Below, in pieces: positions 367 to 64,000 of a DNA stretch of 64,000 bases. This stretch comes from Ptychodera flava. Taxonomy: Eukaryota > Hemichordata > Enteropneusta > Ptychoderidae. The notes beneath the pieces are model-generated. The model was not told where the DNA came from and did no database searches. It was given only the letters and a program-made list of their open reading frames with translations. Positions within the stretch are counted from its first letter, which is position 1. Every line of letters starts with the position of its first letter. Position numbers and translations under genes: made by a program. The stretch covers positions 31,179,933 to 31,243,932 of the forward strand of contig NC_091933.1 in NCBI RefSeq assembly GCF_041260155.1. Reading direction: 5' to 3'.

Positions 367-1349
367 AACAAGTCATCGTTGATGACACAGTCCCCACTTG
401 TTAATGGGTGCTTTGATTACAGGTCCTCAGAGAGGATAGAGTCCTCTTCATTAGGTCTGTGATAAAAATACTTTTGAATAAATTCGCTTGATACATGTCT
501 GAGTTGTAGTTCAGGACATGAAAAAATCATAATAAAATGGCCACATGGTGAACATATTGATCGAATCACAAAACAAATCAATGTGCATATGTATGACATA
601 GGTCAATGTCCTTGTACCAAGTTTGAATAAAATTGGTTGAGATATGCCTGAGTTATGGCTCTGTACATGAAAAAATCATAACAAAATGGCCGCACGGCGG
701 CCATATTGGATCGTATCACAAAACAAATTGATGTGCATAGCTATGACATTGGTCATTGTCCTTGTACCAACTTTGAATAAAATCTGTAGAAACATGCCTG
801 AGTGATGGCTCTGTACATGAAAAAATCGTAATAAAATGGCCGCCTGGCGGCCATATTGGATCGTATCACAAAACAAATTGATGTGCATATGTATGACATA
901 GGTCAATGTCCTTGTACCAATTTGAATAAAATCGGTTGAGAAATGCCTGAGTTATGGCTCTGTACATGAAAAAATCGTAACAAAATGGCCGCACGGCAGC
1001 CATATTGGATCGTATCACAAAAAGAATTGACGTGCATATCTATGACATTGGTCAATGTCCTTGTACCAACTTTGAATAAAATCAGTTGAAACATGCCTGA
1101 ATTATGGCTCTGTACATGAAAAATCATAATAAAATGGCTGCCTGGCAGCCATATTGGATCGTATCATAAAACAAATCGACGTGCATCTGTATGACATATG
1201 AAGTAATCCTTGTACCAAGTTTGAATGATTATCGCTTTAGGCATCTCTGAGATATCTGTGTGAACGGACGGACGCACCCACGCACAGACGCACCCACGCA
1301 CGGACATGACCAAACCTATAAGTCCCCTGGACGGTGTCCGTGGGGACTA
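367..1349 (+). repeat. Tandem-repeat mobile element, family A copy 1
   Basis: The element opens with AACAAG and a small palindrome, GTCATCGTTGATGAC, followed by AGTCCCCAC. About 5.5 tandem units of roughly 149 bp follow; the landmark CCTTGTACCAA recurs near 610, 758, 908, 1057 and 1208. Each unit carries a GC-rich palindrome of the type GGCCGCC-T-GGCGGCC and the text CCATATTGGATCGTATCAC. After the last unit comes a GGAC/GCAC tetranucleotide tract (about 1264-1305), then a terminal hairpin whose last arm is GTGGGGACT, the inverse of the 5' motif. This order (5' motif, core units, microsatellite, 3' hairpin) is that of Helentron-derived DINE-1/pearl-type elements; the assignment is by layout only. 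Open frames inside it are antisense shadows of the repeat. Confidence 0.85.
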
Positions 1350-4300
1350 AAAAACAATGGTCCGGACTAGAATTCATCGCTAAATCTTGACACTTAGACA
1401 TACTTTACAAAATGTGCTGTGAAGACAAGGCTAATACTTTGTGTTTGAACATTGAAATTTAGGGTGAAGACGAAGCAAAAATGAAAAAACAATAAAAAAT
1501 CACATCTATTGTCTTACCAAATTTCTACCACAATATGCATGTAAATTTGAACACGACCAACGGTTCCAGATTACAACAGCTTTTCAAGCCTCCAATCAGT
1601 GGATAGAGTGAAAAAGAGCTACAATGGCGAATCATTAACAGCCAATTCACAAGTATCGTTTTCCAATATTGATTACTTTTATTTCTAAATGTTTCACTGG
1701 ATACAGTAACCTGGGAATTTCATTGTACAAATTGCTAGAAATCTGTAGAAAAGATAAAGCACTGTGAGGCTTGACAAAGTGGCTTGCCACAATTGACCAT
1801 CATGGTACAAATCACCCTGCTTCACACAAAAGCTGACAGAAGGGGTACCCTATTATATAGAAAAAACCCAAAGCTTTAAAGAAACACTTTGGTATATTAG
1901 CACTTACAATATTTATAAATTATTTGTTGTATTACTATAATATGAAAATGAAAATCACACCCTGTATCCAGAGTGTAAAGCTAGAGAAAAGTTGTATTGT
2001 CAAGAAATGTCTATTTATCGATCTATTGATATTAACATTTTTCTTTGAGTCCTGATGTCTTTTTGACTTGTCAATATTCAATAATCTGCCACAGCAAGTA
2101 TCATGGTAGAGAGCATTCTCAGATGATGGTGGGACAAATTTTGTGATTGTGCCTTCTGAGAGCTGGCACAGTCATAAGTCAAAAACCAGTGGAAAAAGGC
2201 ATTTGCTCAAAATGATGGAGTAGTTTGTCACGAGTCAGCCTTTACACACATTAAGCAAAAGTGATAATGAATGGAAATTTGCATGTGTACAGATTTTAGA
2301 ATGATAGATTATGGATGTTTTCCATATTCACTGCAAGCGTCTTTTGATATAAAACCAGACGTTTATAGGACATGAATGTTGATTGGATGATATAGAAGAA
2401 GTTCTGAATTTGAAAGCCACAGATTATGAGACACAGATACTGATTGGACAGCTTTGAACTTTGCCATTTCTTTAGTGTTGCTCTGTAGCATTCAGTATTC
2501 AGAAGAGCTCTCTATCTTCAGCAGAGATTTCAGAACAATACAACTTTAAGTAAATTAATGCTTCATAAAATATTAATTCTCCTTTATTTTGTTGCCTTGA
2601 CAACAAAGTCTTACTATAATATCCCACTTCTCTTATTTACGGAAGTGATTCTGAAGTTGTTCACATTTGACATATCCCATAATGCACTAGTTATGGACGT
2701 GCTCTATGAACAATTCTGTGTGCATCATCACAGTAGTATGTGAAATGCAAACATCATGACTCGCTACTTTTGAAAAGTTTACTTTACACAGGTTGACTCG
2801 TAAAATCAAGGCAAATGCCATACAAATCTTACACAGAAAAGCACTTTAATATGCCGATAAAACCAACCTGATAACAGGTATGACACAGGCATTCTAAAAC
2901 ATTCTCAAAAGAAAAAATGTGTTAATAAAAAGTCTCAGAGTGAGTGTTCTTTCTTCAATTATTTAAATTGTCTGCATAGAATATTAGTTAATTTGTGTCA
3001 GTTTCAAACGGGAACTAGCATAAGCTGTCCAGATATGAAAGGTAATTTATAAAAGCCAGCGTTAAAAACTGCACAGACTAAATATAAGAGAACGTTAAAA
3101 GATGGATATATAACTTATAGATTTGAAGAAGAAATATGAAGAGCAGGTTGTGTATAAAATGAGCTGTTACACTAAAAAAAGAAATTTTTGATATAATGGT
3201 AGAGAATCGTAAAACATCCTTAGCCATTAGAATGCACTTGGTGAAATCCCTGTTTTCTTTGGAATTCCGTATACCATATATCAAAATTGTATTTGGTACA
3301 CATTCATCAACTTCTTCTTGTTATCACTGTTAGCAGTGAAAAGTTCTTAATCTGTCAATTTCTATAGAAATATATAACAATAGGTATAAGTGAGAATGAA
3401 AGTAATAAAATCTATGAAAGTTTAGAAATGTGCATACATCACAAAAACGACAGTAAAAGTAACACTCAGGAAAACTATGAAACATTAAAATTACTCTGAT
3501 TATTAAAAATGCTAAGTTTTGTAATAGCGACAATGCCTCCAGGGCTGAAGTGGATGATTTTGATATTTTTCATTTATTTTCTTTCTCAGTCCAGCTCTGT
3601 TTCACTGGTACACCTTTTAATGATTTCACCTGCTGAAGGATATTTATATATTTAGTGAAGATGACTAGAAGAAGGACGGTCAAAGTTAGGTAAAGCTGAA
3701 AGATATGCAGTTCATGGCTTTGACAGAGTTGTGTCATTACGGGACCTGAAGCCATTGGTGATTTCAGACATATATGAATTACAACACGCAAAATGGACAC
3801 TGTATTGATAACCGATAAGATATCATGAAAATATGAGCCACACGTCTGGAGTTAGCAGTGGCAAATCAATGCCCTCGTTGATCCAACTGATGTCAATACA
3901 GTAGTGCTCGGTATCTAAAATACCCAGTATTGCCCTACAACGCTACTCTCAGACCGTGAGGGCTTGAAAATACATCTATTGAAGTCGTAAATGAGGGAAA
4001 TTAACAAAATCTAATATAAAACAATATCATACAAGTTATCTGTGAGTTCATCACACTAAAAGCAACAAAAAAACTTGTTCAATATTATATAGCTGTCTAT
4101 TGCAATATTTTGCACCAACCTGTCTGAATCAATCTTTAAAATATCACTCTTCATCAGGAGTGACCATGACAGGATTTTTTCATCCCATAGTAAACAGCCA
4201 CAATGCATGAAAGAAAATCAACAACACACAAAGCAGTAACATCTGATTTACAAGGCAAATACATTGGTATATCAAGTCTTGCTTAGGTACACCAGTGCCA

Positions 4301-7867: not shown

Positions 7868-7876
7868 CACAGTCTT
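7818..7876. repeat. 29-bp tandem duplication
   Basis: Two adjacent copies of a 29-bp unit (GAAAATCAAACGGCGGTGAT and GAAAATCACACGGCGGTGAC, each followed by ACAGTCT) start at 7820 and 7849 and differ at two bases. Confidence 0.8.
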
Positions 7877-9561: not shown

Positions 9562-11244
9562 AACAAGCGACCTAGCGGCCGATATAGCTCCGCTGTGTTT
9601 ATGTAGAGAATAACTATTTTTGACACATGTTGATGAAGAAGGAGGAAATCTTTGATAGCTCAATGCAGTGGCCAGAAAAAAGTGGCTAAAATAAGCTGCA
9701 AAAATACACAATTGAAGATTTCATCATACTTTGAATATATCACATCGGATCATCCCTAGGAACATGTCAACCAAAGCTATCTGATGAATAGTGTTTTGAG
9801 AATAAAATTTTCTGACCAAAAATGGCAACAATTGCCCCCCAAAATAAAAATTGCAGATTTCATCATAATTTCAAAAGATCAAATTGAGTTCATCTATAGA
9901 AACCTGTATACCAAATTTCAAAGCTGTTAGACCAGTACTTTTGAGAAACACATATTTTGACCAAAATGGGAAAAATTGCCACAAAATTCAAAATTGCAGA
10001 TTTCATCATTATTTCAATAAATATCATGTAGTTCATCTATGGAAACCTGTATACCAAATTTCAAAGCTATCAGATGAGCAGTTGTTGAAATACACATTTT
10101 TTGACCTAAAATTGCAAAAATTGCCCCAAAAATACAAAATTACAGATTTCAGGAGAAATTAAATATATATTACTTAGCTCATCTGTAGGAACCTGTATAC
10201 CAAATTTCAAAGCTATCAGACCAGTACTTTTTGAGAAACACGTTTTTTGACCAAAAATAGCAAAAATTGCCCCAAAATTACAAAATCGCAGATTTCATCA
10301 TAATTTCTACAAATATCATTAAGGTGATCTGTAGGAACCTGTATACTAAATTGCAAAGCTATCAGATGAGTACTTTTGGAAATACACATTTTTTGACCAA
10401 AAATGGCAAAAATTGCCCCAAAAATACAAAATTGCAGATTTCATCATATTTCAATACATATCATTTAGTTCATGTGTAGGAACCTCTATACCAAATTTCA
10501 AAGCTATCAGATGAGTAGTTTTGGCAATACACATTTTTTGACCAAAAATGGCAAAAATTGCCCAAAAATACAAAATTACAGATTTCATCAGAAATTCAAT
10601 ATATATTACTAAGTGCATCTATAGAAACCTGTATACCAAATTTCAAAACTATCAGACCAGTACTTTTTGAGAAATACATTTTTGACCAAAAATGGCAAAA
10701 ATTGCCTTAAAAATGCAAATTTGCATATTTCTTCACAATTTGAACAAATCTTAAATAGATCATCCCTAGGGACATATGTACCAAATTTCAAAGCTATCTG
10801 ACCGGTAGTTTTGAAGAAGAAGATTTTTAAAGATTTTTTTACCAAAATGACAAAAATTGCCTTAAAAATACAAATATGCAAATTTCACCACGATTTGAAG
10901 AAATCTGACTGAAGTCATCATAAGTAAACTGCATATTAAATTTCAAAGCAATCGGACAAGCGGTTTGAGAAAAGAAGATTTTTTTTACCAAAAAACACCA
11001 AAAAATGCCCCAAAAATACAAATATGCAAATTTCACCACGATTTGAACAAACTTAAGTGAGGTCACCCCAAGTGAACCGCATATAAAATTTCAAAGCAAT
11101 TGGACTTGCGGTTTCAGAGGAGAAGGCAATTGTTGACGGACGACGACGACGACGACGACGACGGACGACGGACGACGGACGACGACGGACGACGACGGAA
11201 AATCAACCTATTTGATAAGCTCCGCGTCGCTGACAGCGGAGCTA
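9562..11244 (+). repeat. Tandem-repeat mobile element, family B
   Basis: The 5' end reads AACAAG, then TAGCTCCGCTGT at 9585-9596. The 3' end carries the inverse, ACAGCGGAGCTA, at 11233-11244. Between them lie about ten units of roughly 145 bp, each with the landmark TATACCAAATTTCAAAGCTA (near 9908, 10050, 10196, 10343, 10490, 10630, 10780, 10935 and 11085) and a poly-purine AAAAATGGCAAAAATTGCC stretch. The units diverge toward the 3' end. A GAC-rich tract (GACGACGACGG type) spans about 11137-11200. A hairpin with arms AGCTCCGC and GCGGAGCT closes the element. The layout is that of family A with different sequence. Open frames here are repeat translations, not genes. Confidence 0.85.
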
Positions 11245-12536
11245 AAAAAGCTATAGTGAGTCACTGCATGATGTCAGGACTGACTGGTTTAGTGTCAAAA
11301 TAAAAAATATCTTTTAAAGTCATGTGACGCAGGAACTGGTAATTTGCTCAGAGGAAACACATTTCACTTATATCAACTAGGAAACAGTTCAATCTTACAT
11401 TTTACTACATGTGATAAGACAGACTGTATCTGGTGCGAATACACCATCAATCCCCGAGTTTGTCAAGCTCAGGGTCTAACTTTACCAACATTTGTTCAGC
11501 ATATTTTGCTTTCATAATTTGAGTCTCTCATCAGTCTGTAAGACGTTCAGAAGGCATTTCATCGTACCCTTTGAAGTGGCTCAAGGCAAAGCGTGCAGGC
11601 AGTTAGTTGCAGTTGGAAAGTTGCCTCTAGCTCAAACATTAAACTTACACAAAAGACAGAGTAGATTAAAAAGGAATTACTGAAGGACACCACATGCAAA
11701 AACACACACCAAGTTGTTAGGAAATTGACAATGCTAATGTTAGGAGAGATAAAATATATAGCAAAACACATATTTTCTGATTTGTGTGTAAAAATAACAC
11801 ACATTTGGTCCTGGTCAAGTTCAATGGTCTCTCCCTTAGTCGTAGTAGTATATTGAAATACTGTTGCATCAGATAAAGTATTTGCGTAGGAATTTCTTTA
11901 CTTCACTTTGCAGGTCTTTGAGTATGTACATGTATATGTGGGGATGGCACTCAATCATATGAAAAGATTTGTTTATAGGAGAGTTTTGCACCAAAGGGAA
12001 ATGCTTTTGGCAACAGATTTGAGTATTTTAGTGATGTGACTGTTCTATTTTATCTCAAATGAGAGGGGATCTTGCATTAACAAGGTGTCTGATATTCACA
12101 CGTAAATGCATTACATTGTTTATGGCAAGTCTGCAATCAGTAACCAGCTAAGTACTCATCTATTTCCCTTATAAGAAATCATAAAATTATTGCGATACTA
12201 GGTGATTGAAGTCCGTACTGACTACATTTCCTGTTTACATGTCTGTGAAAACTACATCTGATTAATCCTTCCATATGGGTGAGTGCCAAGTCCACAACTT
12301 TGTACCATCCAATTCATACCCTTTATGCATGTTTTGTATTGCTACGGTCACAGTCATAGTTACTTGAAAAATATTTCATCCGCAAAGATGCATTTTTTGA
12401 AAAGGTTCAAGAGACTTGGTTTGTTTCTGATGTAAATGACAAGAATTTGAAAGGGTATCAATGGATAATTTGACTAGGGCAGTATTTGTTACTGTAAACA
12501 TCGATAGTCTGCCTTAAATGGTTTTCTGTGTTCAGC
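11245..12536. other. 3' flank of BICD
   Basis: No exon is evident. Part of this stretch must hold the BICD 3' UTR on the minus strand, but no clear polyadenylation signal close to the stop codon was found, so the transcript end is left open. Confidence 0.4.
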
Positions 12537-14480
12537 TCAGAGGTGAGATTCATATCTGGCAAGTTTATCAGACAAAGCTTTCGAATCAACAGGATTGCTA
12601 TATCCACGGTAATAACTCACTCGAGATGATTTCTGTCGCCTCGTTCCGGAGCGTCTCGATGACTGTCTCTCGCTGCTGATCTCGTAATCTTCCAGCCGCT
12701 GTGTGAGGGCCAGTTTCTGCTGTATGGCCATTCTCAGGAGGGAGTTGAGGGTCTTCCTCTCCTCCTCTGCTGAGGCAAGTTTACGTTGCATCTCATCGAG
12801 TTGGGTGACGTAGTCGTCGCAGCGAGTTGCGAACATTGCCCGCAGACTCGCGAAAGTGGCGGCGTCTTCTTTGAGGGCTTTGAGTTCGTTGCGTAGTTTC
12901 ATCATGGTCTCAGCAACAATGGCCTTCTCGTTGGCGTATTTGCTCTTGAGGTTGGCCAACGCCACTTCTGCAGTGGTTTTGTTAGCTTTAAGGACTGTTC
13001 TCAGCGTTGTGATCTGTTCACGCTTTGTTGACAGCAGTGCTTTCAGCTTGACTACCTGGTCCTGCAGGTCTTCATTCTCAGCTGAGCCGCCGCCATCCAC
13101 CCGATGCTGTCTAGCTGATTCCAGTGTGTGCTCAACGGCACGTTTCAGGTATTTAACCTGATCGCGCATTGTAGCTAACATGGTGAAGCATGTAGATGCG
13201 TCTGCGGGGCCTTCGCTGTTGAGAATGCCATTCTGTTCAACCTTAGCATCTCCTGTACCATTGGTTGACGCAGCTTCAAGCATTGCTTCATCGATATCCT
13301 TAGAGTTCCTGTCTGCATTTCTCCTCTCTTTACGACTCATGCCGCTGGCATTGTTGCTCCTAGATGGGGCAATGCCTCGTAGTTTGCTGGCAATCTGAGT
13401 ATGGAATCCCTCTCTCCGACTCATGCGCGTGTTCTTGAAGTGTTCCAACATCACTTTGTTTGGAGTTTCCCCGTTCACTGTACAGATATGGTGATACAGC
13501 TGGGCAAGATCCTCACTTATGCTAATCAGCTCGTCTCGCATACAGTTCAGATTCCCTTGGCTCTCTCCCATAATTTCGCTTGTTTCTTTCAGTTTCCTCT
13601 CAAGTTCCTTCACCGTGGAGTTCTGCTTCCTGTTGTTGTCATTCAAGACGTTCATTTCAGCTTGCAAATCATTGTAGACCTTGGTGGGGATGTTCTGCAG
13701 CTCGTCGGCAGAACTCGTGCGATATGATTGCAGCTCGGCCTGCTGTTTCTGCACTCTGGTGACAGCAGCCAAGAAACGCTTCTCATATCTGTTAATTTCT
13801 TTCTTTAACATGGCAATTTCTCTGTCCTTGTCAAGAAGGTCCTCATACTGCTCACTTTCCTCATCCTCGCTGGCTCCTCCATCTTCATCAAACTCACTAA
13901 AGACCTTTTGGTCGACGACGGCGGACAGCTGGTTTACTCTCTTGCTCTGCTCAGAGAGAGCGTCTTTCGTGTTCCTAAGTTCTTTGTGGGACTCCTGCAG
14001 CGTTCTTGAAAGCTCTGATTTTTCATTCTTCAGAGAATTCAGCTGGGCTTCCAACCTCTCCACTTCAGTTGTGTGGAGTTCACTGAGGAGATCAGAAACT
14101 GTTGCCGGTGCTGGTTGGGGCGAGCCTTCATTGGGCAAAGATGCACGGAACTCGTGTTCCATTCTGCGTAGTATAGGGTGATCAGGCGAGCTACATTCTT
14201 CCCTGTCCAGCTGTAACCTATCGGTGCTGCTTTCTAGATCCTCATTGAGAGCTTCTAGCTCTGACAGCATTTTTCCATCAAGCTCTTTCTTCAGAGCGTG
14301 TTTCTGCTCACGTTCATGTTCAAGGGCGTTTAAGGTCTCCTCAATTTGTTTCTCGGCAATTTCCTTAAGTTTGGCCAGGTCTTCAACCTGGGTGTTCAGG
14401 TACTCTGTTTCTTCGTTCATTCTTCTGATTTCGTGTTTCATGGCTTCAAACTCCACTTGAGATGATTTCAGGCCAGAGAC
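12537..14480 (-). CDS. BICD: BICD coding exon 3 (terminal)
   Basis: 647 codons plus a TGA stop, beginning Val-Ser-Gly-Leu-Lys after the acceptor CATACAG at 14481-14487. This single exon carries the rest of coiled coil 1, the central coils, an acidic stretch (EFDEDGGASEDEESEQYEDL), the linker and the whole cargo-binding domain. In vertebrates this region is spread over several exons (family knowledge), so intron loss here or gain there is implied. The last 45 residues after the cargo domain are basic/Ser-rich and then RGYSNPVDSKALSDKLARYE, not recognisably conserved. The antisense strand has long open frames (up to 166 codons) caused by coding composition only. Confidence 0.95.
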   Translation of the reverse strand, partial: VSGLKSSQVEFEAMKHEIRRMNEETEYLNTQVEDLAKLKEIAEKQIEETLNALEHEREQKHALKKELDGKMLSELEALNEDLESSTDRLQLDREECSSPDHPILRRMEHEFRASLPNEGSPQPAPATVSDLLSELHTTEVERLEAQLNSLKNEKSELSRTLQESHKELRNTKDALSEQSKRVNQLSAVVDQKVFSEFDEDGGASEDEESEQYEDLLDKDREIAMLKKEINRYEKRFLAAVTRVQKQQAELQSYRTSSADELQNIPTKVYNDLQAEMNVLNDNNRKQNSTVKELERKLKETSEIMGESQGNLNCMRDELISISEDLAQLYHHICTVNGETPNKVMLEHFKNTRMSRREGFHTQIASKLRGIAPSRSNNASGMSRKERRNADRNSKDIDEAMLEAASTNGTGDAKVEQNGILNSEGPADASTCFTMLATMRDQVKYLKRAVEHTLESARQHRVDGGGSAENEDLQDQVVKLKALLSTKREQITTLRTVLKANKTTAEVALANLKSKYANEKAIVAETMMKLRNELKALKEDAATFASLRAMFATRCDDYVTQLDEMQRKLASAEEERKTLNSLLRMAIQQKLALTQRLEDYEISSERQSSRRSGTRRQKSSRVSYYRGYSNPVDSKALSDKLARYESHL

Positions 14481-17454
14481 CTGTATGAGAGCCAATGATG
14501 AAAAAATGTCAGTTTCTCTACTGGTAATGGTAACATAGCCAACAGTAAAATTTCTGCAAAGGTACCGGTATCTGTGGTTTAACAAGAATTCCGCCAATTT
14601 AATGCATTTCAATCAATATAATTAAACATAGCTAACAGTTTGATATTTACTGGCTTAAACAGTCTCTGTAAAGTAATGTCGGTAGTATGTTTACACAAAA
14701 AGGATGAATAAAGCAAAACATTCTGGAACACCCTTCATGGTTTCCTTGGTAACTGTTGCATCAGAGAAACAAGGTATTATATATTTTCAATATTACATGA
14801 GCTGTTATTGGCTTGTCAGATGACATCAGCTGATACTTCCACACTATCTATAGATGTACAGCTATATGATATTCCACACTCTCTATGAACCATCCACACT
14901 TCTCTCACCTGTTTTTGTAGTTGTATATTTTCCTCTTCCAATTCACTGTAATCCTGAAGCAGCCTAGTTTCCCGAAATTTATACTCCCTCAACTCGTCTT
15001 TGATTTGCTTCCTCTGTACTTCTAACTTTTCTGTCACATCATTTAATTCAGAGTTCCTGGAGGCAACCCTCTCATTTTCAGATTTAGTCCTATCAACAGA
15101 TAGACGACACTGTTTGATTTCGTTCTCTAAGTCACTGATTCGGGAAATAAAATCAGCTTCCCTGGATGCGGTTTCTTGTAAGAGTGTTTCCTCGTGGGTG
15201 ACTTCATACTGGGTGTGTTTCTTCAGATTAATTTGTTCTTGATCAAGTGCCTGATGGATTGAGATGAAAGATAAAAAACGATGGTGAGGGACACAAACAG
15301 GAAGTTAAACTCTGATGAATGATAGAAATCCACTGGAATACAACTACTCTACACATGACAGAGAGTGTTTTTGTGGAGCAGAGGCAAAAGGTTTATGGTC
15401 ACACTTTTGCCATCCACTGTGATTGCCTTGCTGTACTGAGGAAATCCCGTATAGATGGACATACAGGTGTACCCCTACAAACGTATAATGAAAATATTTA
15501 CTATCAATACCATGGATCCTGGAAGACTGAAATATAAATTTCATTCTTACTTCATCTGAATACCTGCAGGTTTAAACTTGAAACCAAATACTGGTAGAGG
15601 GCCATTGTATTTTCAACGGAAATGAGCCGACTCACATTTTTATTTGTACTGTACATACTATATAAAGGGTATCTACGTTTAGGTTTCTGCAGCTGAGGGT
15701 TTTGGAGGATGGTAAATTGGATTAGGGTGACACAGTACACTGACGCACAGATTGGTTTTTGTTGAGTAAGCAAGCCTCCAGTACTTCGTAATCATATTCT
15801 ACAATTCTTGACCTTTTATTGGAAAGCCAGACAAGAGACACTTGGAGTTGAGATTTCCGTTTCGAGAGAGCTTTGCTCATAATACCAAGCTTTCTAATGC
15901 ACTTAGGGTTCATGAAAAGGTCATGAATGCTTGCCACACATCCAGCTTAACCAAGCCTCTTTCAGTTCTATCAACAGGCATGACGGTATATCCACATTTG
16001 CGTTGTAATCTTTTTTTTTCAGCTGCATATTTACCTACTGTACAGCTATATTCCATAAGGATCGAAAAGGTGTGTGGACAGAATAAATTTCAGGAATTTT
16101 ACACTAATAAGATCACCGTGCATTTGTGTATGCCTGTGGGGGCACACAAGCTCTCCATTCCACACATGGTACAGGCTCGCTATTCCATACACGGTTCCTG
16201 CAGTTACTATGGATACTACAGAAACTAATTTCCTTTGGTTGAAGTAGTCTGATGTATGTGTACAAACAAGTACACTAGAAACACAAAATTTGCAGTAGAG
16301 CCTCTCACAAATTAATGCACCTCAGAGAATACCATGCAAGGCTATCTATATCTTAAAGGCATGCACTCACTTAATTTGATAAAACCCCTTTGTTTTCTAG
16401 GAGGCGGCAGATTGCTACAGAGAAATATAGATGAGATGGGTTCAAGGCTACAATGAGAGGAACTACACCTACGTGTCTCTGAACAGCAAGAGCACACACA
16501 TCAAAATGGATGAAAAGGTTCACATGAATGGAGTGAAAATCACCCTGGGATCATAAACTGCTCTGTAGCCATGCTTACATGCTAACAAGTGACTTTCATA
16601 TTCAAATTCAAATGGTTTGGATTCTATTGAGAACGGCTAATTGCTAACGGCCATCTTTTCGCATATGTCAAGGCATCTATCACTATACATTTATGCTACG
16701 AAAAATTCCAAGTGATGATACATGTAGTGCTCAGGACATCTGGTGCTTTCAAGCTTTACAATAGCATCAAAACAAACTCAAGAAAATGATTGATACTGTT
16801 ACTGAAATGAGACTTTGTGGAGAAGTGTGGTACCTTATTAAAATCCAAAACAAAATCTGGCAGTTTGACATGACCAGCACCTGTATTATTTGATACAGAC
16901 AGAATTGCTACTTATTGAAGAATCTGGCAGTGTCTAGTTACCTCCCACTTGATTACCATCAACTCATAGACAATCCATTGCAGTACCAGTACACTTACGC
17001 TACGGAAAAGTTTCAGAAATTTACAAACACTGTCCAATTCTGTGCAAAGTATACGACAACTTGGTGACCAGGTTGATTCATGCAACTGTTTGTATCATGT
17101 GTCACTCCTTGCTAATTTTTTTTGGCTGCTATAAAAAGATGTGGGATCATGAGGAGCCACAGAAATACAACAGATGCATGACATTTTTCAGTGAAATCTG
17201 ATAATTAATGATATTTCTGTGAATAGGACACCTGGCAATTTGTAATATTTTGTCTGTGCCAGTCTGATTTCATAATGACAATATTTTAAAATATCAGACA
17301 ATACTCATAAATCTAGTATTTTAAAACAGGTTTGATGACAAAGCATGCATCAAAATAATCATGAGTACTACTGAATCTAAAAGTGTATTTGCTGGAGTTC
17401 ATTATATATATACAGTATATATATTATTTGCTGGAGTTCATTATATATATACAG

Positions 17455-17511
<57 letters not shown>

Positions 17512-46823: not shown

Positions 46824-47186
46824 TTTTTAGCTCCGCTGTCAGCGACGCGGAGCTTATCAAATAGGTTGATTTTCCGTTGTTGTCCGTCATCCATCGTCGT
46901 CTGTCGTCCGTCAACATTTGCCTTCTCCTCTGAAACCGCAAGTCCGATTGCTTTGAAATTTTATATGCAGTTCACTCGGGGTAAACTCACTTAAGTTTGT
47001 TCAAATCATGGGGAAATTTGCATATTTCTATTTTTGGGGCATTTTTTGCTGTTTTTGGTAAAAAAATCTTCTCTGAAAGCGCTCGTCCGATTGCTTTGAA
47101 ATTTGATATGCAGTTTATTTAGGGTGACTTCAGTTAGATTTGTTCAAATCGTGGTGAAATTTGCATATTTGTATGCGGAAAATGTG
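46824..47186 (-). repeat. Truncated family B element, reverse orientation
   Basis: Read on the minus strand it ends in the family B hairpin (arms AGCTCCGC and GCGGAGCT at about 46830-46855), preceded by a degenerate GAC tract and then about two core units with TATATAAAATTTCAAAGCAA-like text. The 5' part is missing. This is the second family B copy in the window. Confidence 0.8.
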
Positions 47187-47346
47187 GAATAGATAGCATG
47201 CATGAATCTGAGCAAATCGTTTTGCTCATAAATTCATTATACTTTTAATTTTGAGCTGTTCCCTCAACACCAGCTGTTCCATCTTGTGTATGAGGTGAAG
47301 CCCTTTGGTGTCAGAACAGTGATCACATCTGGGTTAGTTACCCACT

Positions 47347-51241: not shown

Positions 51242-52226
51242 TGCTATGACTAAGCTTGGCCTAAGGTAGTAGTCGCCACCAGTGGCCAAAATATGAAATA
51301 TATCCCACAATGCAAAAGGCCGTATTCGACCCTGAGTGCGAATCTCATGCTGTCTTAACAATAAGTAAAATGGCGTGGCATTTCGTAACCGGCGTGTGAC
51401 CGGTGGCGTAGTAGAGGAAATTGTGTATGTCCAGGGTGAGTATGTGGTATGTGATCTTCCTTTGGCATTTCTTAGATAATTTGTCAGCCAGAAGGTATCC
51501 TCAATGTTATAACGAGAGACATAAACTTGTCTTCTCGACAACACCGTGAACGGCGGCCAGTGCTGTTGCGGAGTGTGGTCCTCAACAGCACTGAGGAGGA
51601 AGCACGTTTGAGACACACAATTAGGTATACCATGGAGGTTGAAAAAGAGATACACAGTAACTCCTACTAGCTTCCAAAAAGGTGCTGAATTGCCAAAATA
51701 TGTACCAGCTATTCAGAAAATGCGGAACCCGTCACTGGGAATAGTGGTATTTAATCAGGACTGCGTAAAATGTCCTGACATGTGATGTAATCACATGAAC
51801 TTCATGATGAAGCCAATTTCAAACAGAAACAAATGGACAAAAAGCAAGACGTGCATTCTGTTTGTTAAGAAGAAAAGGTATGATTATGGATTATAAGATG
51901 CATTATAAATTTGACAAGTGTATCAACACTAAATCTGTAAGTTGTAGTATAATCCTGATGTCCATGATGCGCATCTTGTAATTCTCCTGATTCTTTATTG
52001 CGTAAAGAGCTTGGGTATCATGAGAAAAGCATCCAATAAGTGGACACTAAAAGTGGCAGGATAGTAGTAGGGACTGGAAACCAGTGTTTGCAGTGTAGTC
52101 ATTATTTCTTTCATTTGCAGTCATGACCGGGTGGACTGACCAACTTGTGAGCCTTGAAGGAAATGTTATGTTAATTAATACATATATTATTTTGCAGGTA
52201 GGCAAGTGGTCCATATTAACAGCACC
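51242..52226 (+). promoter_or_regulatory. TRMT10C promoter and 5' UTR (inferred)
   Basis: The stretch 51242-51620 has raised CG content and an AAAATGGCG YY1-like site near 51367. A good donor (CCAGG|GTGAGT) lies at 51435/51436, and an acceptor (ATTATTTTGCAG, ending 52197) lies 29 bp before the TRMT10C ATG. A non-coding first exon ending at 51435 spliced to 52198 is therefore likely. The AAAATGGCG ATG would open a nine-codon upstream frame. Start site unknown. Confidence 0.4.
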
Positions 52227-53816
52227 ATGCTTAGAGGAAATTCCCTAGTTGCCATCAGAAGGATACAGACGTCCATATTGGCGCGTCACCAAAAGAAAGT
52301 CAAGCCATCATCAGAAGTGTTGCAGACACTACCAGATCTATATGAAATCTTTGAGAGCAGTCATGTAACGCATAAAGCACCGTTGGTCCGCAAGTACAGC
52401 TGCACACCAAGGTCAGCTGTATTTGTGTCTCATTTGCAGGTGAGGTGTCTGTGTTCTCAGAAATCAGTGGATGCTTGCTTGCAGAATGAGGATGAGCTGT
52501 CAGATGAAGAGGCAACCCTCGAGAACGCATCAGGCAAAGTTGATACTGTGATTTCATCCAGTGAGCGGGAGAAAATGCTGGAGGATGCCCGACAACTCGT
52601 AGACATGTGGCGCAAGTCAGGAAAGTTTGTACCGGAGGAGGTGACTGAAAGCCAACTTGAGCATTTCTTTAAACTTGAAACGAAGAGCGGCCGAAAGAAA
52701 TACTTGAAATTTCTGGCCCGCAAAGAAATTTTCAAGAGAACAGATAGAATGAAGAAGCTGCGGAAGGCGGAAGAGAGAGAAAAACAACAAACTGGTGAAG
52801 AGGAAAAATTCGAGAAAAATACCATTTTTTTGTATATACGCAACAGTACCATGGCCAATAATGATTTGTGGAGTATGGCACGTGGCATGCGATTTGGTCC
52901 AAAACTTATCATTGACCACAGTTATGAAGATGATATGACCATGAGGGAAATAAAAGCACTAGTCAAACAACTCTCTGAAGTCCTCGGTGCCATGAAAACG
53001 CAGTGGGAACCATTCCACATGCTGTGGACAGATATCAGAAGAGGTGGCCTCGTTGAAAACGAAATCCAAAGAGTGTTTGGAGATTACTTGGACAAACTTC
53101 TCATTGATACCACATATGAAACTTTCACTGATATTTTCCCCAGAGAACAGTTGGTGTATTTGAGTGCAGATTCTCCAAATGTTCTTATGCAATATGACCC
53201 AAACAAGGTCTATATAGTTGGGGGTATGGTAGACCTGACGATAAGGCCACGCATTTCACTTGCAAAGGCCAAGCGGTACAACATCGCCAGTGCACGCCTA
53301 CCCCTGGATCACTATATGAAATGGGGTCCGGGCGGGGGCAAGAACTTGACCGTCGATCAGATGGTGAAGATCATGTTGGAACTGAAAAAGTCTGGAATTT
53401 GGCAAAAAGCACTGAAACATGTGCCAATGCGGAAAATTGAAGGGGTCTACGAAGAGGTCAAGTCGCCTAGGTACACCCAGAACCGACAGCAACCCATGGC
53501 ATCTAGGTCCAACAGACAAGTCCAACAACAATCACTCACAGGGAAATTTTCCTTCAGCCGAGCATCCAAGCCAGTTAAGGAGCAAAAGGAAATGAAAGAA
53601 AACAAACGGGACCTTCATGGGTTGTGGTATGGTAGGACTCCGTATCCTGAGGAGCAGTCATACTTTACTGCCAGGAGGAAAGGAATGATAGCCAGTGACA
53701 CTATCCCACCAAACTTTGCTGAGAAATACAAAAGGACAGTGGAAAAACAGAAAAATGAACGATACAAACAGAGGAGACAGATCCACAAAGAGTATCTAAA
53801 AGACATATTTGAATAA
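52227..53816 (+). CDS. TRMT10C: TRMT10C, mitochondrial RNase P subunit 1 / m1R9 methyltransferase
   Basis: An uninterrupted 529-aa frame. TRMT10C (MRPP1) methylates purine 9 of mitochondrial tRNAs with SAM and, with HSD17B10 and PRORP, forms the protein-only RNase P that cuts tRNA 5' ends. The first 25 residues (MLRGNSLVAIRRIQTSILAR) are basic and amphipathic with no acidic residue, as expected for a mitochondrial presequence. A coiled, charged region (about 100-200, including SGRKKYLKFLARKEIFKR) precedes the SPOUT fold (about 205-405) with VYIVGGMVD, whose Asp336 matches the catalytic Asp of the Trm10 family, then ARLPLDHYMKWGPGGGKNLT and a Trp-x-x-Ala-Leu-x-x-Val-Pro helix. The C-terminus runs about 120 residues past the SPOUT fold; human TRMT10C is 403 aa in total. 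Upstream in-frame codons lie within the UTR exon and lack an ATG. Confidence 0.93.
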   Translation: MLRGNSLVAIRRIQTSILARHQKKVKPSSEVLQTLPDLYEIFESSHVTHKAPLVRKYSCTPRSAVFVSHLQVRCLCSQKSVDACLQNEDELSDEEATLENASGKVDTVISSSEREKMLEDARQLVDMWRKSGKFVPEEVTESQLEHFFKLETKSGRKKYLKFLARKEIFKRTDRMKKLRKAEEREKQQTGEEEKFEKNTIFLYIRNSTMANNDLWSMARGMRFGPKLIIDHSYEDDMTMREIKALVKQLSEVLGAMKTQWEPFHMLWTDIRRGGLVENEIQRVFGDYLDKLLIDTTYETFTDIFPREQLVYLSADSPNVLMQYDPNKVYIVGGMVDLTIRPRISLAKAKRYNIASARLPLDHYMKWGPGGGKNLTVDQMVKIMLELKKSGIWQKALKHVPMRKIEGVYEEVKSPRYTQNRQQPMASRSNRQVQQQSLTGKFSFSRASKPVKEQKEMKENKRDLHGLWYGRTPYPEEQSYFTARRKGMIASDTIPPNFAEKYKRTVEKQKNERYKQRRQIHKEYLKDIFE

Positions 53817-55588: not shown

Positions 55589-56231
55589 GGGGCCATGGAT
55601 AATTAAAACATGCGCGCGGTAAACGAAACTAAGTGTGTTTTTCCTAACCCCCCCTCCCACCTCCCCTAAACGAAAGTTTGGAGTGCAAAAATCCAACCAA
55701 GCCTCATTCTGTATCTGTATCCAACAATCAGCGATAACGTCGCTATGAAATCACATATACGCTACTGACCCCCCCTCCCAACCACATACCCCCTCTAAAA
55801 TAAATCTCGCACACGCTACTGACCCCCCCCCCTCCCAACCACATACCCCCTCTAAAATAAATCTCGCACACGCTACCGACCCCCCATATGCATACCCCCT
55901 CTAAAATCAATCTTTGTTCAGCACCAACTCGACAACCGATGGAATGAAATGAAAAAGTGTATCCAAAATGATTGTTGCGTTATTTTACTCATGCAATGAT
56001 TCACATGTATGTCAAAAGAATGCTGGTGTAGCGCCGGTGCCGTACTGGCCTGGTAGACGCCAAACAATGTAGCACCATATTTTACAATACAGAAAAACAA
56101 GTAGTGAGATGTTGCGATAGGAAAACTTGTACTGTGATTTTTACACATGGTAATCGAAATACAGCCAAACCCCCTCCCCCTAACACAGAAGTTGCATTTA
56201 CCATGCGCGTGTTGTAATTATCCACAGCCCC
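55589..56231. mobile_element. PIF/Harbinger-like MITE 1
   Basis: The left end GGGGCCATGGATAATTAAAA and the inverse of the right end GGGGCTGTGGATAATTACAA start terminal repeats of about 40 bp. The interior holds about 2.5 copies of a roughly 65-bp unit with CACACGCTACTGACCCCCC and CCACATACCCCCTCTAAAAT. The flanks are AAA and TAA, one change from a TAA duplication. No ORF. Confidence 0.7.
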
Positions 56232-56640: not shown

Positions 56641-57151
56641 GGGGCCGTCGATAATAATAACTGACGCACGACAAACGTAATTCTTTCGTTGGGGGGAAGG
56701 GGTAAAAGCTCATTTCGTTTTGTGTGCGTCAAAATTGCATAAGGATTTTATTGTTTTCAAAGTGTGATTTTGCAGCGAGAACGCAATACTACCTTCACAT
56801 TCATCGAGAACAGAATGACCACAAAATACCGAGACAGAAAATAAAACCTTGTATGCTTTTTCGCGGTGAAACATGTACGTGAAACATTTTCCTAAGTGCC
56901 AAATGCATTAAAATGTTCTGTGTCTTAAAAAGTGAAACGCGTAAAGTGGATGTTTATTAATTAATGTGCACTTCCGGTATTTTTTCATCGGCGTGCGGAT
57001 CGGAAAGGTGCGTGTGGGTTTGTCAGAAACTACAAAATAATACGAAATTAATTTCGTCTAAGAACTTTCGTTTTGAGGGGGAGGGAGGGGGTTTCAAGTA
57101 AAGCGAAGGAATTACATTTCTTGTGCGTCAGCTTTTATTATTGACAGCATC
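56641..57151. mobile_element. PIF/Harbinger-like MITE 2
   Basis: The left end GGGGCCGTCGATAATAATAA and the inverse of the right end GATGCTGTCAATAATAAAAG begin terminal repeats of about 50 bp that both continue CTGACGCAC. TAA flanks both sides (56638-56640 and 57152-57154), fitting the 3-bp TWA duplications of PIF/Harbinger. The outermost 20 bp resemble the element at 55589. Confidence 0.7.
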
Positions 57152-57861
57152 TAAGTCCTTGCTCCTGCACTGGTATAAAATACTACAGCTAAAGTTTGAC
57201 ATGTGAACAGCAAGACCCCTTCTGATTTCTGAGCACAGTTCATTATTTTCATTTTATGAAACAATTGCTTCACACAGACAACTACGTTTGTAAAATAAAG
57301 GAAAAGTATTGTACTCTCTAATAGTTTGAACCAGATATGAACTGTAGTGTAAATGCTCACGTCTTTCATTATATATTGCAGTTATGTGTAAATTTGAACC
57401 TTTGCCACATGTTTGCAACTTCATTGAAAGTATTATGATCAACATAGTGAACAAAATTCACCACAGATTAACTCTATAGGTCATTAAGTATTCAAATATG
57501 TAATTAGCTTAAATAAAAATATAAAATAATTAATTTCTTTGACTGGTGTCATTGTACCACCACTTTATATAGCAAGTGTAATTGCCAAGTCCTTCAAACT
57601 ACATATTCCAACTTTGAAAGCTCATTAGATATGCAAACTATAAATTGGCAGTCATGAAAATTTAAGTGCGAAAATGACTTCCAATATTGGTATAAACCTG
57701 GTATAATCATCAATGTACATAGCATGTTTTGCCAACTTTGATCATGCAAATAAATCGAAGTATATATTCCTCATTAGGAAAGTTCATTAAATACACAAAA
57801 TAGGAATTGGCTGAAGCAAAAATGCTCTATGCCTTTCAATAAAGTTAGCCAACACAATAGT

Positions 57862-60000
57862 ATCTCAATTCAATTCAATTCAATTCATTTTATTACCTTT
57901 TATAAATCTTGACAAGTTCATTATTACAAAAACTGAAAATAGGCAAAAGGCAAATATAGATCCAGAAAAATAGCTATATGCTAATCGAGTCTGGTCCCAT
58001 TCTCTTAAATATTTACATTACATATTCCACCATGTGGCGCTCAGTGAAGTGAGTAGTATAAACTTTCTCAACTAATTTCGTAACAACCACTGTTTTAATG
58101 ATTTTATGAACTGATATCGTGATGTACTTATTTTAACAGTATTGGGTAAATCATTCCATAACTTTGCACCCATGTACGAAATTGCAAATTGACCAAAAGA
58201 GGTATGCATTTTAGGTAAAGATAGATTCGCACCAAGTTTGAATCTAGTGTCATAACAATGATCTGCCATTTCATAATAATCTTGTATAGGAAAAGGAAAA
58301 TTATGATGCAACAAGTCAAAAATAAATATCCCAACAAGAAGTTTGTGAAGTTTATAAACATCTAAAATTTCCAAGTTCTGGAATAAGGGTGAGGAAGGCT
58401 CTTGGAATCCAGAAAACGTTATCGCACGTACACACATTTTTTGAGAGATATAAATAGTATTCAAGTATGATGAATATGTATTACCCCAGACTTCAAGACC
58501 GTACATTATATTAGGTAAAATGAAAGCATTGTATAATAAAACAAGTACATTTCTTGGAACATAATTTCTTAATTTGAATAAATCCCTGCTTTTCTTCTTA
58601 TGTATTTATTTATTTCGGCAATGTGTTCTTTCCACATTAGATGTTTATAAATTATCACTCTGACAAATGATGCCTCTGAGGCCTCGTTAATTACAATGTT
58701 TCTGACAGACAAAACCCCTGTGGTTGATAACAATTTGCGTTTACTGTGAAAAATTACATAACTTGTTTTAGAAGTATTTATTGTCAACTTATTAGCATCG
58801 CACCAGCGTGTAACATTCTTAAGATGGTGATCAACTGTAGATAGATCTACATTCCTTATGTCAGCTGGAAAAGTATGAAAAAGGTTTGAATCATCTGCAA
58901 ATAGTCGAAAGTCAAAGTACTTAGAAGCATTCGGTAAATCATTAATATAGACTAAAGTCGGTCCAAGTACAGATCCCTGAGGAACACAATAAATCACTGG
59001 TAGTTTTTTTTTCTGACAAAAAATTCGTTTGTACACACATATTGGGATCTATTGTTCAAATAATTTGTAAACTAGAGAAGTGGGTTTCCTCTCACACCAT
59101 AATGCTGGAGTTTCGATAGTAGTACATTGTGATCAATCGTATCAAATGCCTTCGTAAAATCAATGAAAACACCCATGGTTGAATTTCCTTGATCAATTTG
59201 CTGTATTAAATTATTCACAAGATTGATGAGGGATAATTTGGCACTTCGTTTCTCACGAAAGCAGTATTGGTGTTTGAAAAGCAGGCTATGCCTGTCCAAG
59301 AACTTCATAATCTGCTTATTTACAATTTTCTCCAGAATTTTACTTACTAGGGGTAAAACAGAGATCGGACGATAATTTCCAGGCTCGTCTTTTGATCCCT
59401 TTTTGTAAATTGGGACGACTTTGGCAATTTTCAGTGCATCGGGAAACTGGCAATTTTGAAAAGACAAATTAAAGATGTGACAAAGGGGTTTTGCGATTTG
59501 TTTCGCAGCAATAACCAGGAGTTTCGCAGGCAGGTTATCATAACCTGTTGCCTTCTTCAAGTCAAGACTCATCAATAAGTTGTACACTTCCTGCTCCGTT
59601 GTCGGATGCAGAAAGAAAGAGTGATTTGACTGTTCTGGTAAAAACTCTACAAAAGAGGAACGATGCGTTGCAATCTTACTAGCCAAGTTGGAGCCGACAT
59701 TTGTGAAATAACTATTAAAGCCATTTACAATCTCTTGTGGTGTACTGTACATTTGTGGTATGCCATCTGCAGTCATCGTGAGATGATCTGGTAAACACTG
59801 CCCTTTCTTTCCCTTATGAAGTAGTTTGTTAATTACATTCCAGGTCATTGTTGAATTTTGACAGTTTTCCGTAAAGAGTGACATATAGTAGTTTCTTTTT
59901 GCAGCCCTTAGTAAAGAGGTGAGTACATTTCTGTATCGTTTGTACTGTACAACAATAGTTGGTTCATGATTTGATTTAACCACCTTAGTAAATAAAATCT
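57862..60000 (-). mobile_element. Truncated CR1-like non-LTR retrotransposon
   Basis: Body 57866-59996 on the minus strand, flanked by ATCT at 57862-57865 and 59997-60000. The 5' end is truncated: it starts just before the reverse transcriptase, and no endonuclease is present. The 3' end has a short UTR and a pentanucleotide tail (TTGAA)4-like instead of poly(A), as in CR1/L2-type elements. The flanking array D unit reads across when the insert and one ATCT are ignored (AGTATCT then TTAATGTACATAGC). Confidence 0.85.
58072..59996 (-). pseudogene. Reverse transcriptase ORF2 remnant, frameshifted
   Basis: Three frames in order on the minus strand: 59996-59072, 59036-58569 and 58506-58072. The first has the pre-RT FNSYFTNVGSNLA and RT blocks DLKKATGYDNLPAKLL, GNYRPISVLPLVSKILEK and motif A FIDFTKAFDTIDHN. 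The second has VPQGSVLGP, where residues are missing before YINDLP, and the catalytic FADDSNLF. The third has the C-terminal CR1-type domain ending SFGQFAISYMGAKLWNDLPN. Frame breaks near 59055 and 58540, an altered FREKRSAK block and the missing residues show it is dead. The enzyme family copies its own RNA into nicked target DNA. Confidence 0.85.
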
Positions 60001-61020
60001 TTAATGTACATAGCAAGTTTTCATCAATTTTGGTCATGTAAATTCAAATATATATCCCTATTTCAAAAATTCATTAAATATGCAAATTAGGAGCTGGATG
60101 AAGTAAAAATGCTTAATGACTTTCATAATGTCGTATCATAGTATCTTTAATGTACATAGCAAGTTTCGTCAACTTTGGTCTTGTCAATACAGATAAATAT
60201 CCTGATTATGAAAGTTCATTAATACGTATGCAAATATTAAGGAATTGGCTAAAGCTCAAATGCTTAATGACTTTCAATAATGTTCTATCATAGTATCTTT
60301 AATGTACATAGCCAGTTTCATCAACTTTGGTCTCGTCAATTCAGATAAATACCCCTAATTAGGAAAGTTCATAAAATATGCAAATTAGGAATTGGCTGAT
60401 GTAAAAATGCTTAATGACATTTAATAATGTTCTATCATAGTATCTTTAATGTACATAGCAAGTTTCATCAATTTTGGTCATGTAACTTCAAATATATATC
60501 CTTAATTTCAAAAGGTCATTAAATATGCAAATTAGGGTTTGGATGAAGTAAAATGCTACAATAATAATTCAATAACGTTAAATCATAGTATCTTCAATAT
60601 TCATACCAAGTTTCGTCAATTTTGATCGAGTAAATTCAGATTTATACTCCTAATTCGGAAATCTCATTAAACATGCAAATTAGTAATTATCTTTCACTTC
60701 ACCCCTTAATATCTTTCAAAGCTGATAATCTTGGTGTGATCAACATTTGTAGCGAATCTAATCAATTGTGTGCAGTCGTTGTCAATATATATCAGTTTTT
60801 TCTAAAATCATTAATTATGCAAATGAGCAAAAAGTAAGCAAGCCACACCCACCAAAAACTAATCAGTTCTTGCCATTTGCAAACTGAATCTATGTACCAG
60901 ATTAGATTCTGATCTAATGAGCCGTTTTTGAGATATTGAGTACACAGACAGACAGACAGACAGACACACAGACAGACAGCATCGCTGCGACACATGCTCA
61001 CGTGTGTCAACACGTGAGCA

Positions 61021-61283
61021 AATCAAGGTGAGACTTGAGTGACACCGTGGTCATCAGTATGTATTAGGGAGATGGTGCAGTGGCAAAGAATGTGAAATTT
61101 TCAGAAGAGTTACTTTCAGAATGTGCTTAGGAATACAATTCAGATTAACATTTAAAACTCACTATGTGAGATAATATTCTGTATATTCCAGAAGAGTCCT
61201 TTCAGAATGTGCTTGGAATACAATTCAGAATAATATTCAGACACTCACTGTGTGTGAGATAATATTCTGTATATTCTAGAAGT
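61021..61283. other. Short spacer between arrays D and C
   Basis: Contains an imperfect duplication of about 70 bp (CAGAATGTGCTTAGGAATAC / CAGAATGTGCTTGGAATACA and the following ACTCACT-GTGTGAGATAATA). Confidence 0.6.
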
Positions 61284-61693
61284 AACAAGTCATTGACAAT
61301 GACATAGTCCCCACTTGTAATAGGAGTATTAGTCTTGATGCATGACGGGATGCTCGCATCTAAAAAACAGTACACTTTTTTGGGCGCTTTCTCTCACTGA
61401 TAATATGCAATCTAACGTAGTTATATCAGATATTGTGGTTACTTATTTATTGACATAATCGTGTATTTTAGGTAAAAGGTTATCGAGATCACATGACATT
61501 TTGTCAAAAAATTTCTATCCTATAGTCTGTCCCCATATACTAAAAATCATACATTTACCTCTATTGGCTTGCTCAAATTAGATATGCACATAATTAATGA
61601 GGTACAATATGTGGCGTCATAAGGTGTCCCATCATACAAATATGAAGGGTGTAGCACTTGTGGTTACTGAGTTATGGACAATATGTATATTTG

Positions 61694-61721
61694 AGGTCAA
61701 AGGTCACCGAGGTCACGTGAC
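61694..61721 (+). promoter_or_regulatory. DR1/DR3 plus E-box motif cluster, first of the array
   Basis: AGGTCA-A-AGGTCA (DR1), then CCG and a third AGGTCA (DR3 spacing) overlapping GTCACGTGAC. The intact DR1 recurs at 61920, 62146, 62369, 62593, 63046 and 63913; the intact GTCACGTGAC recurs at 62164, 62387, 62611, 62838 and 63922. The motifs match nuclear-receptor (RXR/HNF4 class) and bHLH-Zip (TFE/USF class) consensus sites. Function is not shown. Confidence 0.4.
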
Positions 61722-63257
61722 ATTTTTTCAAAAAAATTGTATTGCTAAGTTATCCCTATATACCAAAAATCAGACCTCTAGCTCTATTGGCTCGCTCAAA
61801 ATTAGATATGTGCATAATTAATGAGGAACAATATGTGGCGTCATAAGGTGTCCCATCATACCAAATATGAAGGGTGTAGCACTTGTGGTTACTGAGTTTT
61901 GGACAAATATGTATATTTGAGGTCAAAGGTCACCGAGGTCATGTGACATTTTGTCAAAATAATTGTATTGCTAAGTTATCCCTATATACCAAAAATCAGA
62001 CCTCTAGCTCTATTGGCTTGCTCAAAATTAGATATGTGCATAATTAATGAGGTACAATATGTGGCGTCATAAGGTGTCCCATCATACCAAATATGAAGGG
62101 TGTAGCACTTGTGGTTACTGAGTTATGGACAAATATGTATATTTGAGGTCAAAGGTCACCGAGGTCACGTGACATTTTGTCAAAATAATTGTATTGCTAA
62201 GTTATCCTATATACCAAAAATCAGACCTCTAGCTCTATTGGCTCGCTCAAAATTAGATATGTGCATAATTAAGAGAAACAATATGTGCGTCATAAGGTGT
62301 CCCATCATACCAAATATGAAGGGTGTAGCACTTGTGGTTACTGAGTTTTGGACAAATATGTATATTTGAGGTCAAAGGTCACCGAGGTCACGTGACATTT
62401 TGTCAAATAATTGTATTGCTAAGTTATCCCTATATACCAAAAATCAGACCTCTAGCTCTATTGGCTCGCTCAAAATTAGATATGCGCATAATTAATGAGA
62501 ACAATATGTGGCGTCATAAGGTGTCCCATCATACCAAATATGAAGGGTGTAGCACTTGTGGTTACTGAGTTATGGACAAATATGTATATTTGAGGTCAAA
62601 GGTCACCGAGGTCACGTGACATTTTGTCAAAATAATTGTATTGCTAAGTTATCCCTATATACCAAAAATCAGACCTCTAGCTCTATTGGCTTCGCTCAAA
62701 ATTAGATATGTGCATAATTAATGAGGTACAATATGTGGCGTCATAAGGTGTCCCATCATACCAAATATGAAGAGTGTAGCACTTGTGGTTACTGAGTTAT
62801 GCACAAATATGTATATTTGAGGTCAAAGGTAATTGAGGTCACGTGACATTTTGTCAAAAAAATAGCATTGCTAAGTTATCCGTACATACCAAAAATCAGA
62901 CCTCTGGCTCTATTGGCTCGCTCAAAATTAGATATGCACATAATTAATGAGGAACAATATGTAGCGTCATAAGGTGTCCCATCATACCAAATATGAAGGG
63001 TGTAGCATTAGTGATTACTGAGTTATGGACAAATATGTATATTTGAGGTCAAAGGTCACCAAGGTCACATGACATTTTGTCAAAAAATTGTATTGCTAAG
63101 TTATCCATATATACCAAAAATCAGACCTCTAGCTCTATTGGCTTGCTCAAAATTAGATATGCACATAATTAATGAGGTACAATATGTGGCATCATAGGGT
63201 GTCCCATCATACCATATATGAAAGGTTTAGCACTTGTGGCTACCGAGTTATGGACAA

Positions 63258-63898
63258 TTATAATATGCTTAGCTTGAATCCGGCAATCTGATTGGCTGGA
63301 GCCAGGGTTTATATTCTCAACAAGAAGACCTGAGCCTCGCGTAACATTTTTGAGCTCGCGCAAATTTAGAACGACAACTTGAGAGCTCAACGCGTCATGT
63401 CGAACAAGTCTATGGCTTCAGATTGATTTTGATTGTTAAATTTTAGTCTAGTGCAGCTTGACGAACCAACAAATGAAGAGTTTCTGTAAGCTGCGGAGGC
63501 CAAGTAACAACAACATAATTTTTAAAAGTTTTTTGAGAGTTTTTTGAAGTAAAATTCTTTAAGTTGGATGACTAATCGCGATATCGATGCGTTGCGTAAC
63601 CGTATTTTATGAATTCAACTGTGCATGGGCGCGCGTTCTAAAACGTTCTTTTTAAGTTTGTGTGAGGCTGGGCGCTCCTGAACTCTCGCTCCGACTTCAG
63701 CCCTATTAACGACATTGTCCACTTGTTTTTAACTTTAGCATATTATAATGAGGTTATAAACGGTGCGCTCGGGTATTTGGTTGCGGATATAAGACCTCTG
63801 GGGTGAGAATTAGCATATTTCCCGCCAAATATGCAATTTTCACCCCAGAGGTCTTATATCCGCAACCAAATACCCTCGCTTGCCGTTTATAACCTCTA
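63258..63898. mobile_element. Insertion interrupting the last family C unit
   Basis: The array text GGACAA...ATATGTATATTTGAGG is split here. The inserted DNA starts TTATAATATGCTTAGC and has a matching inverse AGCATATTATAA ending at 63748, then a separate palindrome (63750-63896). It is more CG-rich than the array (for example GCGCGCG, CTCGCG). No target duplication could be fixed; it may be one element or two adjoining ones. Confidence 0.6.
63750..63896. repeat. Long near-perfect hairpin
   Basis: Arms of about 62 nt starting GAGGTTATAAACGG and running through GGTATTTGGTTGCGGATATA and AGACCTCTGGGGTGA, separated by a roughly 23-nt loop that itself has GCATATTT/AAATATGC complementarity. The arms differ by only a few bases. 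Confidence 0.85.
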
Positions 63899-64000
63899 AA
63901 TATGTATATTTGAGGTCAAAGGTCACGTGACATTTTGTCAAAGCGTCTGAGATATCTGCGTGAACGGATGGACTCACATGGATGGACTAACGGACTGACA

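Follow-up and report, generated by a model that had tools for sequence, protein, structure and literature searches.

The window (the whole 64,000-nt stretch of DNA analysed here, in whose numbering all positions are given) contains protein-coding genes and members of four repeat families, A to D. A BicD gene is represented by two minus-strand ORFs (12537-14612 and 14816-15304), and a tRNA methyltransferase 10C-like gene lies on the plus strand at 52179-53816. The product of the latter is 97% identical (450/465 residues) to a Ptychodera flava protein, the next matches, in Glandiceps and Saccoglossus, being at 50%. The host is a hemichordate of the genus Ptychodera, and the bivalve parallel drawn in an earlier note on this DNA does not extend to the host setting. 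A C-rich 57-bp minisatellite (2.1 copies, 98% matches) occupies 55769-55885. The elements of families A to D, whose coordinates are collected in the table, make up 16.3% of the window.

Table. Elements of families A to D, their parts and the sequences nested in them (~, approximate position)
Feature	Position	Strand	Remarks
Element A1	367-1353	-	complete; 3' end CTTGTT at 367-372
A1 palindrome	373-385	-
A1 3' subTIR	389-397	-
A1 core	~466-1257	-
A1 tract	from 1266	-	GTCY-type, degenerate
A1 5' subTIR/IR hairpin	1321-1348	-	with T5 edge
Element B1	9562-11248	-	complete; end CTTGTT at 9562-9567
B1 3' subTIR	9585-9596	-	12 nt
B1 core	~9772-11125	-
B1 junction module copy	11082-11125	-	9 nt to first GAC
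B1 tract	11135-11199	-	GAC-type
B1 5' hairpin	11218-11243	-
Element A2	25661-26652	-	complete; 93.7% identity to A1
A2 junction module copy	26508-26551	-	9 nt to first GAC
Element B2	46824-47174	+	5' fragment without 3' end; T5, hairpin, microsatellite, about two core units
Element D	57329-61025	-	interrupted; 3' end uncertain
D putative 3' subTIR	57354-57362	-
D core pieces	start at 57470 and 59993	-
Non-LTR retrotransposon remnant in D core	~57866-59992	-
D junction module copy	60895-60938	-	8 nt to first GAC
D tract	60944-60979	-	ACAG
D 5' hairpin	60995-61020	-
Element C	61284-64000	-	runs off window end; 5' hairpin outside window
C end CTTGTT	61284-61289	-
C palindrome	61290-61302	-
C subTIR-like sequence	61306-61314		AGTCCCCAC (plus-strand reading)
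C best-scoring module copy	62985-63028	-	in the 226-bp core
Insertion nested in C core	~63257-63902		two inverted-repeat structures
C tract	from ~63966	-	degenerate

That A to D are real repeat families, as the earlier note had it, is borne out by their tandem cores, by the agreement between copies and by significant 5' hairpins. The core units measure 149-150 bp in A (five copies), 145-148 bp in B, 226 bp in C (8.1 copies) and 147 bp in D (4.7 copies). An alignment of A1 with A2 (991 columns) shows 93.7% identity, and one of B1 with the oppositely oriented B2 (381 columns) shows 85.8%. On the minus strand, the same succession of parts is seen in A and B: T5, a 5' subTIR with its IR as a hairpin, a GTCY-type tract, the tandem core, a 3' subTIR and a terminal CTTGTT. 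A palindrome (TCATCAACGATGA in A, TCATTGTCAATGA in C) is placed between the 3' subTIR and the terminal CTTGTT of A and C; the single difference between the two versions is a compensatory change of C-G to T-A. The GTCY-type microsatellite, a common though not obligatory feature of HINEs, follows the 5' end and precedes the core; it is degenerate in A1 and C. Tracts of at least three GAC steps occur four times in the 64 kb, all four inside elements, namely B1, A2, D and B2; the degenerate tracts of A1 and C fall below this filter. The layout proposed earlier thus had the order of the parts right but their polarity wrong: the minus-strand reading is the one that matches DINE-1 and Cg_HINE, and what had been called the 3' hairpin is actually the 5' end of the element.

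A 5' subTIR with a complementary IR is found in A1, A2, B1, B2 and D. The folding z-scores of the corresponding hairpins are -3.5 (A1), -5.2 (A2), -4.1 (B1), -4.75 (B2) and -3.8 (D), and 0 or 1 of 200 shuffles folds equally well in each of these five copies. The inverted match between the two ends of an element is 12 nt in B1 (0/1000 shuffles) and 9 nt in A1 (20/1000), A2 (11/1000) and D, where it is marginal (52/1000). Palindromes are visible at the 3' ends of A and C, and a convincing one is absent from B and D; 3' palindrome folding energy is non-significant, the shuffles that fold as well numbering 29 (A1), 23 (A2), 39 (B1), 21 (C) and 112 (D) of 200. The flanks of the three complete copies, A1, A2 and B1, show no multi-base repeat. 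A TT duplication would be compatible with these flanks, because the element edges are T-rich (as the 5' edge is at A1, A2 and B1); the same difficulty in scoring TT duplication is acknowledged in the accessible literature.

Two of the elements are interrupted. The core of D is split by a minus-strand non-LTR retrotransposon remnant (~2.1 kb), two of whose ORFs match reverse transcriptases (E 2.1e-15 and 1.9e-7). The remnant is degenerate, its RT ORFs are broken up, and it has a TTCAA-repeat tail; a possible ATCT duplication can be read from the neighbouring units. D, previously taken as one element from 57470 to 61020, accordingly has a retrotransposon inside it, and position 57470 belongs to the core and is not an element end. 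In the case of C, the element spanning 61284-64000 stands as such, but it is truncated by the window end, and an interruption of ~0.65 kb had been counted as part of it. In that insertion, ATTATAATATGC at 63257 pairs with 63738, and a long foldback occupies ~63750-63896. An 88-bp direct repeat (2.1 copies, 61102-61282) ends at the 3' end of C; from its sister copy, one side of the site can be read as it was before C inserted.

A and C match over 35 nt of their 3' ends at 85.7% identity (a 3' region match seen in 0/1000 shuffles) and over 28-32 nt adjoining the microsatellite at 91-96%, the alignment being confined to near both ends. Since these two families share end regions while their cores otherwise differ, some of the lineages are related. 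D has no flank alignable with those of the other families, RF similarity between pairs other than A-C was rejected, and the similarity of the A and B 5' blocks (22/1000 shuffles) is suggestive only. Compared as whole units, the cores show no strong alignment across families (20 pair-and-strand tests), strong agreement being found only between two B variants. The next-best whole-unit pairs (B-C on opposite strands, 2/300 shuffles; late B-D, 7/300; late B-C, 15/300; A-C, 27/300) are unused as evidence. To this extent the core sequences are different, as had been stated, but the cores of A, B, C and D have in common a 44-nt module, TACCAARTTT...TGAGWTAT, and its retention in all four argues against the proposal that the cores were simply swapped or re-evolved.

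The register of the module comes from an exhaustive ungapped search of all registers of the four consensus units. The six pairwise comparisons, each of 44 columns, total 143 matches at the optimum; a register predicted by eye, two nucleotides off this optimum, has 141. A score of 143 is reached by 0 of 60 shuffles and by 1 of 1200 in a larger set, and seven orientation-flipped controls give 125-136 matches. The module seeds were picked by eye with all families in view; for each family held out in turn, a matrix made from the other three was applied to both strands of the whole window. Held-out A yields 10 sites at 9.3-26.8 bits (best site outside elements, 8.7), B 10 sites at 10.7-24.6 (9.8), C seven at 13.0-21.7 (12.9) and D two, at 17.3 and 19.8 (10.6), and all 29 of these top-ranked sites are in element orientation. 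The module copies that fail the cut set by outside sites are two in A (5.6 bits), one in C (8.4) and most D units. At 40545, away from the elements, a candidate module (9.8-12.9 bits) was rejected as background. Thirty shuffled windows give maxima of 17.3, 19.6, 19.4 and 19.0 bits, so that lone sites below ~20 bits are non-significant, the best D site (19.8) leading slightly; column-permuted matrices attain the observed maximum in 0/300 trials for each family.

The module also has a near-fixed place. Its last copy ends 9 nt from the first GAC in A1, A2, B1 and B2 and 8 nt from it in D (all five testable copies), and at the tract of C the last part of the module alone is present, 9 nt ahead of a GAT step. 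The 226-bp unit of C includes a second, diverged module copy (29/44 self-match at offset 98, 0/500 shuffles). Within 61433-63256, the C unit thus resembles an old dimer. Beyond the window, the 14 viral-contig loci L002-L015 have a best module score of 14.5 and, with no RGAC tract adjoining the listed top sites, are read as chance; other scans of viral contigs for related sequences gave no matches. A genome-contig match (L001) comes from an archaeal gene region in which an ACAG tract occurs by chance; its positions 3500-3588, in a thaumarchaeal metagenome-assembled genome, hold adjacent intergenic (TCTG)n and (GTTC)n tracts. Rfam (4227 families, gathering threshold) gave 0 matches.

The five-unit arrays of A1 and A2 correspond in register. 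Same-register units of the two copies are 92.7-94.7% identical, different units inside A1 75-93%, and this excess of in-register over within-array identity means that the array was most likely copied as a whole during transposition and has probably escaped homogenisation since then. Units 2 and 4 are an exception in that they cross-match between copies at 94-96%, a value that equals or exceeds the in-register identity and agrees with an earlier duplication of two units (299-bp period).

A, B, C and probably D can be thought of, with a probability of about 85%, as HINEs, that is, non-coding, non-autonomous Helentron-type rolling-circle transposons, which would be moved in trans by a putative Rep/helicase encoded elsewhere in the genome. 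The earlier assignment to non-autonomous Helentron lineages survives in the parts of A and B, their minus-strand order, the T-rich edge and the lack of multi-base duplication, but its polarity, its uninterrupted D and its simply swapped or re-evolved cores find no support. Rep would recognise the 5' end, with its T-rich edge and its subTIR and IR as a hairpin; the strand would be copied through the GTCY-type tract and then the tandem core; the 3' subTIR (together with the palindrome in A and C) would mark termination; and insertion would be into T-rich sites without multi-base duplication. A finished array would be copied whole. Since the units are built around the 44-nt module, at near-fixed spacing from the microsatellite, the arrays most likely expanded through successive duplications of a segment that carries the module, and the remainder of the core unit would have diverged family by family.

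Short, non-coding elements with inverted repeats near both ends, and with T-rich edges at which a TT duplication could go unseen, might also be MITEs that derive from a cut-and-paste (DDE) transposon and contain minisatellites by coincidence, a description once given to pearl elements and DINE-1. The inverted repeats of A to D, however, lie subterminally and are asymmetric, an IR accompanies the 5' one, and A1, A2 and B1 are without multi-base flanking duplication; a DDE origin is very unlikely. There is appreciably more room for doubt about D, which has no T5 edge, no palindrome, a weak 3' subTIR and flanks unlike those of the other families, and might be a minisatellite that has an ACAG tract and, by chance, a hairpin. 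On the other hand, its 5' hairpin is strong (z -3.8), its GTCT tract is correctly placed, and its junction module, 8 nt away from the tract, scores 19.8 bits, so that exclusion of D from the HINEs is a minority possibility, albeit one that deserves some weight. As regards the module, convergence or composition (A+T-rich repeats being alike) might stand in for common descent or constraint: one of the 1200 shuffles does reach the four-way score, shuffled windows attain 17.3-19.6 bits, and two D sites pass and no more. Yet leave-one-out recovery succeeds in four of four families, with 29 uniformly oriented sites, permuted matrices fail in all 300 trials for each family, and the 8-9 nt tract spacing recurs in five of five copies, which makes fortuitous resemblance quite unlikely.

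The HINE reading of A to D finds a close parallel in the oyster Crassostrea gigas. In the accessible text of PMC7492417, Cg_HINE elements have a left flank of subTIR, IR and GTCY-type microsatellite, a tandem core, and a right flank of subTIR and palindrome; they insert into T-rich sequence without duplication, and several families occur per genome. Cg_HINE_3 and _6 have related flanks and unrelated repeats, and the otherwise divergent monomers of group 1 are said to share two motifs (PMC7492417). The plan of flanks and core is the same as here, a 3' palindrome being visible in A and C and the T-rich 5' edges of A1, A2 and B1 being what such insertion would leave, and the flank-repeat pattern of Cg_HINE_3/_6 is like that of A and C. 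With several families and a shared-flank pair in Cg_HINE, the coexistence of several HINE lineages with different cores is of a kind already published; what is new is the finding of HINE members in a hemichordate, the kind itself being ordinary. Helentron proteins have been reported from Hemichordata (PMC4067079), a literature search for hemichordate HINEs found none described in the titles or abstracts of the papers listed, and Helitron is unmentioned in the accessible main text of PMC11175523. The difference from Cg_HINE, besides the host, is that many cores there are grouped as unrelated (in the same accessible text), whereas here a 44-nt module lies by the microsatellite in four families. 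In the literature examined, no genome was seen whose families all carry the same module within their central repeats and at a constant distance from the GTCY tract, and a search for the printed module or repeats gave no transposon paper carrying the module among the matches listed. The HINE plan is thus extended to a hemichordate, in which several families coexist, and the four cores suggest that "unrelated" central repeats of different HINEs may be built on a single shared module in a constant position; this bears on the origin of satellite DNA from transposons.

Mite HINE-Mo and Helentrons have subTIRs, a 3' palindrome and T-rich insertion without target modification, as set out in the accessible text of PMC4067079; the subTIRs of HINE-Mo are palindromic and without IR in that account, whereas the elements of the window resemble DINE-1 in having an IR. 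Bivalve pearl elements (CvA, CvE, CvG) have a tandem core of ~160-bp units and have been re-categorised as non-autonomous Helentron (accessible text of PMC7492417 and PMC11136912); they are likened to A to D by description (tandem core, Helentron class). The 5' block of Drosophila DINE-1/INE-1 contains a subTIR with partial IR and a GTCY-rich microsatellite, and is followed by variable central repeats and a 3' stem-loop, with a preference for TT; a conserved core of ~90 bp lies in block A (accessible text of PMC2374699 and PMC4067079). The likeness to the present elements is in subTIR/IR, tract and central repeats, and the difference in the subTIR sequences, as compared with those in the accessible text of PMC2374699.

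A reads GGTCATGTCCGTG before its tract and GATATCTCAG after it. The 5' block of Drosophila DINE-1 has a similar segment, ATCTCAGGAAC, after its tract, and the printed INE-1 primers GGCCATGTCCGTCTGTCC and TATGAACGCGTCGATCTCAG are compatible with that segment. Equivalence of the ~90-bp DINE-1 core with the 44-nt module is a lead that comes from this segment and the two primers. It may tentatively be supposed that the module is an ancient cis-acting Helentron part, whose distance downstream of the 5' GTCY tract is fixed, that each tandem unit descends from one copy of it, and that it is perhaps in DINE-1 too. If so, satellite-like monomers would be multiplied replication or transposition signals, not captured sequence, and this would account for the spreading of satellite DNA by Helentrons in many animals.
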